A model generated the notes under the pieces. The model searched no databases and was not told the origin of the DNA. It saw nothing but the letters and a program-made list of their open reading frames with translations. The position numbers and the translations under genes were made by a program. 64,000 nucleotides of DNA from Ruegeria marina. Lineage in GTDB: Bacteria; Pseudomonadota; Alphaproteobacteria; Rhodobacterales; Rhodobacteraceae. This document shows, in pieces, positions 52,089 to 57,579 of this stretch (position 1 is the stretch's first letter; every line of letters begins with the position of its first letter). The stretch spans positions 62,001-126,000 of the forward strand of contig NZ_FMZV01000006.1 of assembly GCF_900101475.1 (NCBI RefSeq). Reading direction: 5' to 3'.

Positions 52089-53080
52089 CCCAAGGCCCGG
52101 TGCTGATCGACCTCGGCGACGAGACCACACCGCCGCCGCCCGTGACCGAGGCACCCGCGGTGCCCGATCTCGACCGGCCGCAGGGAACGGCGATGCAGGC
52201 CGCCGCGCGGGTCGCGGCCCGGCGGCCCTCGCGGCTGGCGCGCTGGTTCTGGGGGCTGGCGCTGTCACTGTTGGGGGCCATGGTCTCGCTCACGGCCTGG
52301 AGCTGGGTCAATGACCTGATCGCGCGTGTTCCGGTGCTGGGCTGGGCGATGGCGGCTCTGCTGGCGGTTTTCGTGCTGGTTTGCGGACTGATCGCCCTGC
52401 GCGAACTGGCGGCGATCGGGCGGCTGGGACGTATTGATGGCCTGCGCCGCGCCGCCGATGCGGCGCTGGCCGAGGACAATCTGGCACAGGCACGCGCCGT
52501 CTGCGCCCGGCTCGACGGCTTTTATCGCGGACGCGAGGATTTGGCTTGGGGCCGCGCGCGGCTGACTGAGCGCGCCGGCGAACAGTTTGATGCCGCCACG
52601 CTGCTGGCGCTGGCCGAAGAGACTCTGCTGGCGCCGCTCGACGCAGTGGCGCAGCGCGAGGTCGAGGCGGCGGCCCGCCGGGTCGCCACGGTAACGGCGC
52701 TGGTGCCGATGGCGCTGGCCGATGTGGCAACCGCGCTGGCTTCGTCGCTCAGGATGATCCGCCGGGTGGCCGAGATCTATGGCGGTCGCGCCGGGGTGCT
52801 GGGCAGCTGGCGGCTGACGCGGGCGGTGCTGTCGCATCTGGTGGCCACCGGCGCGGTCGCCGTCGGCGACGACCTGCTGGAACCGGTGCTGGGCGGTTCG
52901 GTGCTCAGCAAGCTGTCGCGCCGGTTTGGCGAGGGGCTGGTCAACGGCGCGCTGACCGCGCGCGTGGGCGTCGCTGCGATGGAGGTCTGCCGGCCCCTGC
53001 CGTTTTCCGGTGGGCGCAGGCCCTCGGTCCGCAAGGTCGTGCGCCGGGCGCTGACCGGTTTGATGAGCAAATCGGGCTGA
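52085..53080 (+). CDS. ycjF: YcjF family inner-membrane protein (DUF697/TIGR01620)
   Basis: A 331-residue membrane protein. Acidic N terminus of about 50 residues, two hydrophobic helices (about 60-80 and 85-110), a soluble helical middle part, and the DUF697 domain with SLRMIRRVAEIYGGRAG, GDDLLEPVLGGSVLSKLS and a late amphipathic region. It is the usual partner of YcjX and is probably part of an envelope-stress response complex; the exact function is unknown. It overlaps the upstream GNAT gene. Confidence 0.84.
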   Translation: MTQGPVLIDLGDETTPPPPVTEAPAVPDLDRPQGTAMQAAARVAARRPSRLARWFWGLALSLLGAMVSLTAWSWVNDLIARVPVLGWAMAALLAVFVLVCGLIALRELAAIGRLGRIDGLRRAADAALAEDNLAQARAVCARLDGFYRGREDLAWGRARLTERAGEQFDAATLLALAEETLLAPLDAVAQREVEAAARRVATVTALVPMALADVATALASSLRMIRRVAEIYGGRAGVLGSWRLTRAVLSHLVATGAVAVGDDLLEPVLGGSVLSKLSRRFGEGLVNGALTARVGVAAMEVCRPLPFSGGRRPSVRKVVRRALTGLMSKSG

Positions 53081-53094
53081 CCGGAGGGGGAGAA

Positions 53095-53157
53095 GGGGGC
53101 GCTGCCCCCGTCGCCGCAGGCGGCGACTCCCCCGGAGTATTTCAAACCAGAAAGAAG
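53095..53157. repeat. Intergenic repeat element, copy between ycjF and the globin gene
   Basis: GGGGGCGCTGCCCCC hairpin, GTCGCC...GGCGAC hairpin, then CCCCCGGAGTATTT, CAAA and CCAGAAAGAAG. The order and sequence match the copy at 50044. Here it lies between convergent genes, where it could work as a terminator. Confidence 0.75.
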
Positions 53158-53162
53158 CGGGA

Positions 53163-53576
53163 TCAGAACAGCGAGGGCACTTCGTCGGGTCGCTGGCGCA
53201 TCGAGACGATGCCGGTGCGGAAGCCTTCGCCGATCCGGTCGGCCAGCGCGGCCCATTGTGCGGCGATGTCTTCGGGAAGTTCGTCGCGCAGCACCTCGCG
53301 GAACAGGCCCAGCCAGACCGCGAAATGTTCGGGCCGGATCTCGGGACGCGCCACATGCACCCGCATCGGGTTGCCGTCATAGCTGCGCTCGCGCAGGATC
53401 GCGTTGCGCCAGAACCCGGCGATCTTGGCCTCGTGGCCGGGCCAGTCCGTCACATGGGCGGCGAAGACCGGTCCCAGCACCGGATTGGCGCGCACCCTGG
53501 CATAGAACCGGGCCACCACCCGGTCGATCTGACCGGGAGCGATGTCGAACCGTGCAAGAGGATTGGGCAGGGTCAT
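53163..53576 (-). CDS. Group III truncated haemoglobin
   Basis: A 137-residue truncated globin. The proximal His is probably His74 in GNPMRVHVARP, followed by the HFAVWLGLF pattern (84-92) typical of group III globins; the FYARVRANPVLGPVF segment near the N terminus is the B/C-E region. Such proteins bind O2 or NO and are linked to NO or peroxide defence. AGGA lies 8 bp ahead of the start at 53576. Divergent from the VIT-family gene. Confidence 0.87.
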   Translation of the reverse strand: MTLPNPLARFDIAPGQIDRVVARFYARVRANPVLGPVFAAHVTDWPGHEAKIAGFWRNAILRERSYDGNPMRVHVARPEIRPEHFAVWLGLFREVLRDELPEDIAAQWAALADRIGEGFRTGIVSMRQRPDEVPSLF

Positions 53577-53707
53577 GGGTGGAAATCCTGAGTGAGCGCC
53601 TTGCATATAGGCGTTTGCCGTGCCGCCGCAAACCCGGTTTGACCTGACGCAAGGTCGCGGGGGCAATACCGGTGCACACTGTCCCCAGCCAGACGAGGAA
53701 ATGCGCC

Positions 53708-54418
53708 ATGACCGATCACAGCCACTCGCCCGATGCCATCGCCGCCCGGATCGGCGCACCGCCGGGGCGCGGGGTGTTGCGCGACATCGTTTATGGCGGC
53801 ATTGACGGGTCGGTGACGACCTTTGCCATCGTGGCGGGGGTGGCGGGGGCCGGGCTGTCGCCCTTTGTCATCGTGGCGCTGGGTTTGGCCAATGTGCTGG
53901 CCGACGGGTTTTCGATGGCGGCGGGCAACTACTCGGGCACCAAGGCCGAGCTGGACAATATCCGCCGCCTGCGCGTGGTCGAGGAGCGCCATATCGCCCG
54001 CTACCCCGAGGGCGAGCGGCTGGAGGTGCGCGAGATCCTGGCGCAGAAGGGCCTGTCGGGCGATGTGCTGGAGCAGGCCACCGACGCCATCACCGCCAAT
54101 CGCGAAAACTGGGTCGCGCTTATGATCGAGGGGGAATACGGGCTGGGCAGCGTCGATCCGCACCCGATGCGCGCGGCACTGGCCACCTTTGCGGCCTTTC
54201 TGGTGGCAGGCATGATCCCGCTGCTGCCGTTTCTCTTCGGGCTGGCCGAAGCGTTCACCGTATCGGCCTGGATGACCGGGGCGGTGTTCTTTGCGATTGG
54301 CACGATGAAGAGCTTCTGGTCGCTGGCGCCCTGGTGGCGGTCCGGCCTGGAGACACTGGCCATTGGTGGCGCCGCGGCGCTGATCGCCTATGGGGTCGGG
54401 CTGTTGTTCCATGCCTGA
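53708..54418 (+). CDS. VIT1/CCC1 family iron/manganese transporter
   Basis: A 236-residue membrane protein. N-terminal helix [20 protein letters not shown] and [17 protein letters not shown] are diagnostic of VIT1/CCC1. A cytoplasmic segment of about 65 residues ([19 protein letters not shown]...) forms the metal-binding region between TM2 and TM3, and the last ~90 residues contain three helices. It probably exports Fe2+ or Mn2+ from the cytoplasm. Standalone gene, divergent from the truncated globin. Confidence 0.88.
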
Positions 54419-54501
54419 TGCGGCGAATTGAGCGCGCAAAAGCGGTCTGCACCCGCGTCTCGGCGCTTTACCCCGGCGTGGCCCCGCCATATAAGGCGCG
54501 C

Positions 54502-54552
54502 ATGAGCCATCCGCGCCTCATCATTATTCGAATTACGTCCCCGGCGCTCTGA
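54502..54552 (+). CDS. Putative ileS leader peptide
   Basis: A 16-codon frame, MSHPRLIIIRITSPAL then TGA, lies 87 bp ahead of ileS. Four of five consecutive codons specify isoleucine (ATC ATT ATT CGA ATT). ATT is a minor Ile codon in this GC-rich window, where ATC prevails by eye. The end of the frame overlaps the 5' arm of a hairpin. This is the layout of a ribosome-mediated attenuator that would sense charged tRNA-Ile and control ileS. A clear ribosome binding site is not seen (AAGGCGCGC precedes the ATG). Confidence 0.6.
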   Translation: MSHPRLIIIRITSPAL

Positions 54553-54570
54553 TCTATCCGAGACGCCGGG
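54540..54570 (+). promoter_or_regulatory. Hairpin overlapping the ileS leader peptide end
   Basis: CCCGGCG (54540-54546) pairs with CGCCGGG (54564-54570), extended inward by TCT/AGA after one bulge. The 5' arm lies in the last codons of the leader peptide, so a ribosome stalled on the Ile codons or stopped at the end would change its folding. A second possible stem around 54575-54594 follows. No strong T-run is seen, so control could act on translation or Rho access. Confidence 0.45.
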
Positions 54571-54639
54571 CAAAGGTGTTCGAGACCTCGCACCGACCGC
54601 ACCCATTTTCGCTAAGACGACCATCCAAGGGACGCCCCC

Positions 54640-57579
54640 ATGTGCGCCGACACGCCTGACTACAAAGACACGCTGAACCTGCCGAAAACCGAATTCCCGA
54701 TGCGCGCCGGACTGCCCGCGCGCGAGCCGCAGTGGCTGGAGCGCTGGGAGCGCATCGGTGTCTATGACCGCCTGCGGGAAAAAGAGGGCCGCGCGCCGTT
54801 CACCCTGCATGACGGCCCTCCCTACGCCAACGGTCACCTGCATATCGGCCACGCGCTGAACAAGACGATCAAGGACATGATCGTGCGCAGCCATCAGATG
54901 ATGGGGTTTGACGCGCGTTACGTGCCCGGCTGGGACTGTCACGGCCTGCCCATCGAATGGAAGATCGAGGAACAGTACCGCAAGAAGGGCAAGAGCAAGG
55001 ATGACGTCAATGTCGTCGAGTTCCGCCAGGAATGCCGCCGCTTTGCCGAGGGCTGGATCGACATCCAGCGCGAAGAGTTCAAGCGCCTGGGCATCACCGG
55101 CAACTGGGCCGACCCTTACGTCACCATGGACTATCATGCCGAGGCGGTGATCGCCGACGAGTTCATGAAGTTCCTGATGAACGGCACGCTCTATCAGGGC
55201 TCGAAACCCGTGATGTGGTCGCCCATCGAACAGACCGCCCTGGCCGAGGCCGAGGTCGAATATCACGACAAGGAAAGCTTCACCATCTGGGTGAAGTTCC
55301 GGGTCCACTCGGTGTCTCAAGACGATGACATTGACCTTTCGAAGACAGACTATCTGCGCGGAGCCTATGTCGTCATCTGGACCACGACACCCTGGACCAT
55401 CCCGTCGAACAAGGCGGTGGTTTTCGGCGATGACATCGCCTACGGTCTCTACGAGGTGACCGGCACTCCAGACGAGTGTTGGGCGTCGGTGGGCGACAAA
55501 TACATCCTGGCCGACAAGCTTGCTGGGGATGTGTTCCGCCGTGCACGGCTTGACGAAGGTCAATGGAAACGTACCGCAGATGTTCCGACAAGTGACCTTG
55601 CTGGGGTTTTCCTTACCCACCCGCTGCATGGTGCCGAAGGCGGCAATGGCGAATGGGACGACCTACGCGATTTCCGCGCCGCCGAGTTCGTGACCGATAC
55701 CGAAGGCACCGGTTTCGTCCATTGCGCCCCTTCCCACGGGATGGAGGAATTCGAGCTTTACCGCGATCTGGGCATGCTGGAGCAGGTCATCACCTGGAAC
55801 GTGATGGACGATGGCAGCTTCCGCGCCGATCTGCCCTTCTTCGGCGGCAAGTACATTCTCAACCGCAAGGGTGGCGAGGGCGATGCCAACAAGACGGTGA
55901 TCGACAAGCTGGTCGAGGTGGGCGGCCTGCTCGCGCGTGGCAAGATCAAGCACAGCTATCCGCATAGCTGGCGGTCGAAGGCGCCGATCATCTATCGCAA
56001 CACGCCGCAATGGTTCGCCAGCGTCGACCGTCCCGTGAACGACGGGCAGGACAGCTATGGCAAGACCATCCGCGAACGCGCGCTGACCTCGATCGACCAG
56101 CTGGTCAAGTTCACGCCGCAGAGCGGCCGCAACCGGCTCTATTCGATGATCGAGGCGCGGCCCGACTGGGTGCTGTCGCGCCAGCGCGCCTGGGGCGTGC
56201 CGCTGACCTGCTTCACCCGCAAGGGCGCGCTGCCGACCGACGCGGACTTCCTGCTGCGCGACCCGGCGGTGAATGCCCGCATCTTTGCCGCATTCGAGGC
56301 AGAGGGCGCCGATTGCTGGTACGCGGAGGGCGCCAAGGAGCGGTTCCTGGGCGCGGATTACAACGCCGATGACTGGGAACAGGTGTTCGACGTGCTCGAC
56401 GTCTGGTTCGACAGCGGCTCGACCCATGCCTTCGTGCTGCGCGACCGCGAAGACGGCACCGCGGACGGCATCGCCGATGTCTACATGGAAGGCACCGACC
56501 AGCACCGCGGCTGGTTCCATAGCTCGCTCTTGCAGGCCTGTGGCACACTCGGTCGTGCGCCTTACCGCAACGTGGTCACGCACGGGTTCACCCTCGACGA
56601 GAAGGGCATGAAGATGTCCAAGTCGCTGGGCAATACCATCGTGCCCGACGAGGTGGTCAAGCAGTACGGTGCCGATATCCTGCGGCTCTGGGTGGCGCAG
56701 ACCGACTATACAGCCGACCAGCGCATCGGGCCCGAGATCCTGAAAGGCGTCGCCGACAGCTATCGCCGGCTGCGCAACACCATGCGCTTCCTGCTGGGCT
56801 CGCTCGGTGATTTCACCGAGGCGGACCGGGTGAGCGACCCGGCTGAAATGCCGCCGCTGGAACGCTGGGTGCTGAGCCGGATGGCCGAACTCGACGAAGA
56901 GGTCCGCAAGGGCTATGCCGGTTTCGACTTCCAGGGCGTCTACAGCGCGGTGTTCAACTTTGCCACCGTGGACCTGTCGGCCTTCTACTTCGACATCCGC
57001 AAGGACGTGCTCTATTGCGATGGCGACAGCCCGCGCCGCCGGGCAGCGCGCACGGTGCTTGACCTGCTGTTCCACCGCCTGACCACCTGGCTTGCGCCGG
57101 TGCTGGTGTTTACCATGGAAGAGGTCTGGCTGGAGCGCTATCCCGCAGATGACAGCTCGGTCCACCTGATCGATTTCCCCGACACACCCGCTAACTGGCG
57201 CGATGCCGAACTGGAGGCGCGTATCGCCCGCATCCGCCGGGTGCGCCGGGTGGTGACCTCGGCGCTGGAAATCCAGCGCCGCGACAAGGTGATCGGGTCG
57301 AGCCTTGAAGCGGCCCCGGTGGTGCATGTCGAGGACGCGGGCCTGCGCGAGTTGCTCGCGGGCCTTGACATGGATGATCTCTGCATCACCTCGGGCCTGA
57401 CGGTGACGGGCGACCCGACCCCTGCGGAGGCGTTCCGCCTGCCCGAGGTCGAAGGGGTCGGCGTGGTTTTCGAGACGGCGGAGGGCGAGAAATGCCAGCG
57501 CTGCTGGAAGATCCTGCCCGATGTCGGCCGCCACGCCCATGCCGGCGTCTGCGGCCGCTGCGACGCCGCGCTGGGATAG
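54640..57579 (+). CDS. ileS: Isoleucyl-tRNA synthetase
   Basis: Class I aminoacyl-tRNA synthetase, 979 residues. HIGH at 68-71 (GHLHIGHALNK), KMSKS at 658-662 (GMKMSKSLGN), the editing domain between about residues 200 and 420 (WTTTPWTIPSNKAV, GTGFVHCAPSHG), and the C-terminal zinc-binding CQRCW...CGRC. A bacterial-type (class 1) IleRS, so likely mupirocin-sensitive. Preceded by a candidate leader-peptide attenuator and followed by a repeat element. The coding sequence is intact. Confidence 0.97.
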   Translation: MCADTPDYKDTLNLPKTEFPMRAGLPAREPQWLERWERIGVYDRLREKEGRAPFTLHDGPPYANGHLHIGHALNKTIKDMIVRSHQMMGFDARYVPGWDCHGLPIEWKIEEQYRKKGKSKDDVNVVEFRQECRRFAEGWIDIQREEFKRLGITGNWADPYVTMDYHAEAVIADEFMKFLMNGTLYQGSKPVMWSPIEQTALAEAEVEYHDKESFTIWVKFRVHSVSQDDDIDLSKTDYLRGAYVVIWTTTPWTIPSNKAVVFGDDIAYGLYEVTGTPDECWASVGDKYILADKLAGDVFRRARLDEGQWKRTADVPTSDLAGVFLTHPLHGAEGGNGEWDDLRDFRAAEFVTDTEGTGFVHCAPSHGMEEFELYRDLGMLEQVITWNVMDDGSFRADLPFFGGKYILNRKGGEGDANKTVIDKLVEVGGLLARGKIKHSYPHSWRSKAPIIYRNTPQWFASVDRPVNDGQDSYGKTIRERALTSIDQLVKFTPQSGRNRLYSMIEARPDWVLSRQRAWGVPLTCFTRKGALPTDADFLLRDPAVNARIFAAFEAEGADCWYAEGAKERFLGADYNADDWEQVFDVLDVWFDSGSTHAFVLRDREDGTADGIADVYMEGTDQHRGWFHSSLLQACGTLGRAPYRNVVTHGFTLDEKGMKMSKSLGNTIVPDEVVKQYGADILRLWVAQTDYTADQRIGPEILKGVADSYRRLRNTMRFLLGSLGDFTEADRVSDPAEMPPLERWVLSRMAELDEEVRKGYAGFDFQGVYSAVFNFATVDLSAFYFDIRKDVLYCDGDSPRRRAARTVLDLLFHRLTTWLAPVLVFTMEEVWLERYPADDSSVHLIDFPDTPANWRDAELEARIARIRRVRRVVTSALEIQRRDKVIGSSLEAAPVVHVEDAGLRELLAGLDMDDLCITSGLTVTGDPTPAEAFRLPEVEGVGVVFETAEGEKCQRCWKILPDVGRHAHAGVCGRCDAALG

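Follow-up and report, generated by a model that had tools for sequence, protein, structure and literature searches.

A conserved leader-peptide element upstream of ileS in Alphaproteobacteria as a candidate attenuator

Introduction

Several bacterial aminoacyl-tRNA synthetase genes are preceded by leader peptides. These have been described for trpS and leuS in Streptomyces and for pheST (PMC1262725), and leader-peptide attenuation has been reported for hisS paralogues (PMC2965389). In view of these precedents, the opinion of the first-pass annotation of the DNA considered here, that a leader peptide on a synthetase gene is less usual, needs qualifying. As far as the available text of these sources goes, the pheST, trpS, leuS and hisS leaders resemble the one upstream of ileS in having cognate codons in an ORF before the synthetase gene. 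Unlike them, the ileS leader has one main conserved hairpin, one invariant Ile codon and a probably leaderless start.

The leaderless trpL attenuator of Sinorhizobium meliloti (peTrpL/rnTrpL) lies before the biosynthetic gene trpE (PMC10117765). On the available text, it shares with the present element an alphaproteobacterial leader peptide, a leaderless sORF, here predicted, and the position of an attenuator before an amino-acid gene. It differs in that it concerns tryptophan and trpE, with no mention of the core in the portions available, while the present element precedes ileS and several other genes. An "ileS leader CDS" of Caulobacter crescentus (CCNA_03934) is named in a ribosome-profiling paper as the negative control in an overexpression assay, and the accessible part of that paper gives no sequence, hairpin, mechanism or conservation for it (PMC4117421). 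Like the leader described here, it is a small alphaproteobacterial CDS that precedes ileS, and compared by description alone it is a likely homologue. Judging by the method of that paper, its translation was likely measured.

T-box RNAs bind tRNA directly and have no leader peptide. Translational T-boxes are found before ileS in Actinobacteria (PMC1262725) and, to the extent that this source describes them, are like the present element in being upstream RNA elements that sense tRNA-Ile, as proposed here. They differ in that a leader peptide is present here and no T-box match was found between positions 53000 and 56000 of the window. In the literature covered, through titles and the openings of abstracts and with subscription journals thinly represented, the core, hairpin and spread of the ileS leader were not described.

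The ileS Leader of Ruegeria marina

The window is a 64,000-nucleotide stretch of Ruegeria marina DNA. It contains, on the forward strand, the following features:

54467 to 54495, + strand: predicted promoter, with -35 TTTACC (54467-54472), a 17 nt spacer and -10 TATAAG (54490-54495)
54502 to 54552, stop included, + strand: leader ORF MSHPRLIIIRITSPAL, 16 sense codons, with ATG at 54502 and TGA at 54550-54552
54529 to 54535, + strand: invariant core CGA-ATT-A, comprising Arg, the proposed sensing Ile codon and the first base of the next codon
54540 to 54570, + strand: hairpin 1 (segments 1:2), with the stop codon in its loop and its 5′ arm within the ORF
54575 to 54594, + strand: hairpin 2, GGTGT/GCACC in Rhodobacteraceae, stem in 95/118
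54627 to 54632, + strand: putative Shine-Dalgarno-like AAGGGA of ileS, read in the sequence
54640 to 57579, + strand: ileS, isoleucyl-tRNA synthetase, 979 aa (TIGR00392, 763.2 bits against a cut-off of 621.4)

The first-pass annotation had proposed a 16-codon, Ile-rich ORF before ileS, followed by a hairpin with its 5′ arm in the last leader codons, and both are borne out by the sequence. The Ile codons of the leader are, in order, ATC, ATT, ATT and ATT. The arms of hairpin 1, CCCGGCGCTC and GAG-A-CGCCGGG, occupy 54540-54549 and 54560-54570. A search of Rfam with window positions 53000 to 56000 gave four matches, every one under the gathering score, and no T-box family was among them (E up to 5). 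Rfam cis-regulatory families had no match in 11 loci. The gene just before the leader, also on the + strand, encodes a membrane protein (53708-54418), which we take to resemble the VIT1/CCC1 family. A 27-codon ORF with a GTG start (54576-54659) overlaps the start of ileS.

Distribution of the Leader

Leaders were recognized by three features: a core with few mismatches, an in-frame ATG ahead of it and a stop codon shortly behind it. The family sample (Rhodobacteraceae) consisted of 120 genomes, of which 117 were judged, 97 through the position of ileS and 20 through an exact-core locus beside ileS. Two genomes without a usable ileS start and one with its leader at a contig end were left out of the count. 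The other samples were the ileS upstream regions of 80 named genomes and of 80 genomes from a class sample of 191. The 80 class loci are not a random draw, since 22 were picked for an exact core beside ileS and 58 by order of IleS similarity. One of the 22 belongs to Rhodobacteraceae and was counted there, and one of the 58 is only 94 nt long.

The first-pass annotation had asked for the region upstream of ileS to be compared among relatives, and this comparison found the leader in 109 of the 117 judged family genomes, three of them with one or two mismatches, together with a conserved hairpin. The exact core was found in 107 of the 120 family genomes. In the named genomes the leader was present in all 26 Rhodobacterales loci (L031-L056) and in 32/54 others; the carriers include Ruegeria, Leisingera, Paracoccus, Agrobacterium, Rhizobium, Methylobacterium, Bosea, Bradyrhizobium, Hyphomonas and Neoroseomonas. 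In the same scan it was absent from all four Sphingomonas loci and one Pelagibacteraceae locus. Leaders with at most one mismatch were present in 33/79 class loci, that is, in 20/21 of those picked by core and 13/58 of the others; one match with three mismatches was excluded. In the window's own 5.0 Mb genome the exact 13-base core occurs once. Since it is that rare and is placed before ileS throughout the family, the element lies far beyond chance. Outside the class, an exact core was present in 6 of 161 genomes of a phylum sample. This does not exceed background, since the reversed pattern, used as a control, matched 10 times in 8 of the same 161. The sequence comparisons indicate that the leader is a real, widely conserved cis-element of the leader-peptide type.

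Where ileS follows ribF, the leader tends to be missing. A match to the C terminus of RibF (six short seeds, E up to 0.01) was found upstream in 55 of the 76 loci that lack the leader, compared to 30 of the 210 that have it, so the position of ileS after ribF is only partly the reason for the absence. A different spacing between core and hairpin was looked for in the loci without the motif, and no convincing case was found. In L157, L255 and L304 the core stands at the usual spacing in longer ORFs, with one changed base in L157.

The Conserved Core and the Isoleucine Codons

The conserved unit is CGA-ATT-A-NNNN-CCCGG, or Arg-Ile-x-x-Pro, in which CCCGG is the 5′ arm of hairpin 1. CGA is conserved in 193/198 leaders, ATT in 198/198 and the following A in 196/198, and the next four bases are variable. 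Core sequences were admitted with up to two mismatches and were required to have an ORF, so these figures carry some ascertainment. In a less biased check, with ACT-like genes (see below) found by protein search, CGAATTA was present in 23 of 24 leaders and CGAATTC in one. The core Arg is replaced by Gly in three Bradyrhizobium leaders.

The reading frame of the core is also conserved. Among 173 non-redundant exact-core sequences, the core frame is open to an ATG within 75 nt in all 173 and meets a stop within 60 nt in 172. In the same set the two other frames are open to an ATG in 24/346. Counted from the nearest ATG, leaders are 8 to 32 residues long.

Of the residues that separate the core from the nearest Met, 276 of 927 (30%) are Ile in Rhodobacteraceae and 81 of 651 (12%) elsewhere. 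These upstream codons are skewed to the rarer ATT and ATA relative to ileS genes. In Rhodobacteraceae the leaders have ATC 126, ATT 116 and ATA 34, compared to 1069, 148 and 10 in the ileS genes; elsewhere ATA accounts for 36 of the 81 leader codons, and the ileS genes have ATC 1488, ATT 240 and ATA 60. The core Ile is always ATT (198/198), a codon that makes up 12–13% of the Ile codons in ileS genes (148/1227 and 240/1788). On the frame test and the Ile enrichment, a short, presumably translated ORF with cognate Ile codons, as expected of an attenuator, lies upstream of ileS.

The run of Ile codons that drew attention to the R. marina leader is less general. Ile stands at codons -3, -2 and -1 in 81/127, 98/129 and 74/131 Rhodobacteraceae leaders and in 6, 13 and 15 of 64 leaders outside this family. 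Because Ile is frequent at these positions only in Rhodobacteraceae, the tandem run is a lineage feature. The first-pass annotation had proposed an Ile-run leader. An in-frame ORF bearing Ile is indeed conserved; the poly-Ile run is lineage-specific, and the Ile codon that never varies is the lone ATT following CGA. In 20 of the 198 leaders, counting from the nearest ATG, there is a single Ile.

Promoter and Leaderless Start

When 112 Rhodobacteraceae sequences were aligned on TATA[AG]N, T was present at -23 in 111, A at -20 in 97 and C at -19 in 104. This -35-like T-[TG]-[GT]-A-C lies at a constant distance from TATA[AG]N. The -10 hexamer was matched in 108 sequences and not in 18 others; in 82 of the 108 it is separated from the first in-frame ATG by 6 or 7 nt. 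In other families the promoter is harder to make out, and a suitably placed -10-like pattern fits 27/65. A consensus promoter scan detected no sigma-70 site at the leader.

The usual spacing from promoter to start sets the expected point at which transcription begins. For the conserved promoter this places the predicted transcription start at or beside the leader ATG, and the leader mRNA is therefore probably leaderless. The leader ORF is thus probably translated from a leaderless mRNA.

The Hairpins and the Read-Out

The five outer pairs of hairpin 1 can form in 127/133 Rhodobacteraceae and 62/65 other sequences within a permissive window of 90 nt. CCGGG is found 13–60 nt past the 5′ arm in 121/133 and 54/65, respectively. 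In control windows it was found in 18 and 4 cases upstream and in 1 and 1 further downstream (Rhodobacteraceae and others). Covariation was assessed in 118 Rhodobacteraceae sequences anchored on the structure and selected for possessing the outer pairs. Inner pairs 7 to 10 had changes on both sides in 5, 6, 11 and 6 of these sequences. At pairs 8, 9 and 10 the paired counts were higher than in any of 500 shuffles, and at pairs 6 and 7 they were not. This conserved hairpin overlaps the end of the ORF, and in an attenuator its formation would depend on the position of the ribosome.

The stem of hairpin 2 was searched as GG...CC, and only its inner pairs are informative. The third pair, C-G in 60 sequences and T-A in 30, exceeded every shuffle. 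In 78 sequences of an unselected register this pair was formed in 56, compared to a shuffle maximum of 49, and pairs 1, 2, 4 and 5 had no excess over shuffles in the same register. Two conserved hairpins raise the question of a classical attenuator in Rhodobacteraceae, with 1:2 and 3:4 hairpins and a 2:3 antiterminator. Of 78 sequences, at least 71 allow CGCC (segment 2) to pair with GGYG (segment 3), with 0, 0, 1 and 6 mismatches at the four pairs, and covariation of this 2:3 pairing is not above shuffles. The 5′ arm was then hidden in the 78 sequences up to the base taken as the ribosome edge and the minimum-energy fold was calculated. The 2:3 pairing formed in 12 and 3:4 in 44 (six with residual 1:2). 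Of the remainder, 4 had residual 1:2 alone and 18 had none of the three pairings. A classical 2:3 antiterminator is thus feasible as pairing and not favoured by energy. Inspection by eye of a set of leader sequences revealed no T-run behind hairpin 2. We regard a four-segment attenuator as an unlikely account of these leaders, despite the conservation of both hairpins.

With respect to termination, the absence of a good T-run noted in the first-pass annotation was confirmed: hairpin 1 of the window is followed by CAAAGGTG. In Rhodobacteraceae the 8 nt after hairpin 1 contain 0.84 T compared to a background of 1.38, and at least four T are present in 1/122, on which a T-run terminator is rejected for this family. 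Outside Rhodobacteraceae the mean is 2.95 compared to 1.51 nearby (p 8e-8), and 19/56 have at least four T. Among ACT-like leaders, at least four T follow the hairpin in 1/22. These counts make intrinsic termination plausible for some of the other families and implausible for Rhodobacteraceae. In the set of leader sequences inspected by eye no conserved complement to the Shine-Dalgarno sequence, such as would sequester it, was noticed.

Proposed Mechanism and Alternatives

Taken from sequence comparison, the probable function of the ileS leader is that of a ribosome-mediated attenuator responding to charged tRNA-Ile. Transcription would begin at or beside the leader ATG, as the promoter suggests, and leaderless translation would run close behind RNA polymerase. 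When charged tRNA-Ile is scarce, the ribosome would wait once the invariant AUU has entered its A site. A ribosome covers roughly 15 nt downstream of its P site. Since CCCGG starts 8 nt after the first base of the AUU, it lies inside this footprint, and hairpin 1 could not close under the stalled ribosome. Masking of the 5′ arm would raise ileS expression. With plentiful Ile-tRNA the ribosome would finish at the stop codon, which lies within the hairpin loop in most Rhodobacteraceae, and depart; hairpin 1 would then form and ileS expression would fall. Outside Rhodobacteraceae the output is probably intrinsic termination, given the T-rich stretch behind the hairpin in many. In Rhodobacteraceae, which have no T-run, Rho, pausing or translation would be the candidates. 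Sensing of Ile-tRNA by the leader is likely on this evidence, and the fixed AUU is the best candidate for the sensor.

If this is true, a large part of the Alphaproteobacteria uses a leader peptide to set the level of IleS, and the sensing unit of this leader is conserved down to single bases, synonymous positions included. The question of codon context, CGA before AUU and A after it, would be directly testable. The core would also provide a sequence handle for a small regulon, in which the ACT-like protein is a candidate player in isoleucine control. In its widest form the proposal is tentative: an alphaproteobacterial regulon may be read through a fixed dicodon, in which CGA, decoded by inosine wobble, sits in the P site and makes the following AUU unusually sensitive to Ile-tRNA. 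The sensor would then be one codon set at a constant distance from a hairpin. Under its control might be ileS and an ACT-like protein that takes part in isoleucine metabolism as partner or regulator; a P-loop kinase-like and a SnoaL-like protein might be added in some lineages.

Several observations count against Ile sensing by attenuation. A stall at the tandem Ile codons -3 to -1 is too far upstream to cover hairpin 1 and would favour its formation. Ile sensing leaves the invariant CGA, and the A after ATT, unexplained, and AAA_33 and SnoaL-like genes that follow the same leader have no known link to Ile. The T content after hairpin 1 is below background in Rhodobacteraceae, and only 1/22 ACT-like leaders have at least four T. 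Masking of segment 1 does not favour the 2:3 antiterminator, 20/198 leaders have a single Ile and 16/24 ACT-like leader ORFs continue past the hairpin.

The recurrence of R, I, P and A/V across gene contexts, including genes without a link to Ile, would be expected if the nascent peptide R-I-x-x-P-(A/V) arrested the ribosome upon a signal other than Ile-tRNA and the stall opened the hairpin. The fixation of synonymous positions (ATT in 198/198, CGA in 193/198) argues against such an arrest, as do the variation of the two residues after Ile, the Arg to Gly change in the three Bradyrhizobium leaders and leader lengths of 8 to 32 residues. The P-A/V is already accounted for by the hairpin arm, and we consider this reading improbable. 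Conservation of CGA-ATT-A at the nucleotide level, which neither hairpin nor peptide explains, and the identical core ahead of several gene types would fit a 7-mer, CGAAUUA, that together with the hairpin is an RNA or DNA site for a protein or small RNA, the ORF being secondary. However, the core frame is open in 173/173, Ile and its rarer codons are enriched upstream, and the transcription start predicted from the promoter falls at the start codon, which leaves this site a slim prospect. It is also doubtful that the leader is conserved yet constitutive, setting basal ileS expression through a leaderless start or RNA stability with no sensing of Ile. Small leader CDSs are not necessarily regulatory, but the enrichment of Ile and its rarer codons, the fixed distance from Ile to hairpin and the T-rich tail in other lineages speak against this.

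Other Genes behind the Same Leader

The device proposed for ileS, attenuation through the fixed AUU, seems from its sequence to operate also at some ACT-like genes and at a few further genes. The class sample contains 55 exact-core places. Of these, 24 lie before ileS, 14 before an ACT-like gene (L319 being a distant member), 3 before AAA_33 genes (two from the same genus) and 2 before SnoaL-like genes (one genus). Eleven lie in or beside other frames without the shape of a leader, and one was not retrieved. In a protein search for ACT-like genes, the leader was present in 24 of the best 30 of 46 places. Ten of those 30 had seeded the search; among the other 20 it was present in 14. Two of the six leaderless cases (L387 and L403) are short loci with a guessed gene start. 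The leader ORF of ACT-like genes (36–49 codons) extends past the hairpin in 16/24 and perhaps reaches toward the gene start. In genome G233 one strand carries, in this order, the leader, an ACT-like gene with a weak match (E 4e-10) and, directly after it, ileS. Loci of this small alphaproteobacterial protein family, in which the leader is frequent, include L318, L320, L322, L324, L325, L327, L329, L331-L333, L336, L353, L354 and, with the ileS of G233, L304.

The ACT-like family matches models of the acetolactate synthase small subunit weakly and below cut-off (Pfam E 0.028, NCBIfam E 0.052). Its match to that subunit in the PDB has an E of 0.71, behind tyrosyl-tRNA synthetase at 0.5. Several members had no match in family or structure searches.

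In the family sample, three of the second core matches that were retrieved (L123, L219 and L223) precede an AAA_33 gene. When AAA_33 genes were collected by protein search from the 120 family genomes, the leader was found before 4 of 20. The AAA_33 gene is not called a homoserine kinase here, the NCBIfam model for that enzyme giving 20.2 bits compared to a cut-off of 197. The AAA_33 P-loop loci L123, L219, L223, L334, L349, L352 and L363 have an R-I-x-x-P-(A/V)-stop leader, and in these leaders a tight hairpin surrounds the stop codon. The name SnoaL-like was assigned by eye, with no Pfam match. In the two loci of this kind (L355 and L356, one genus) the leader ends in R-I-S-N-P-A-stop at a near-perfect hairpin.
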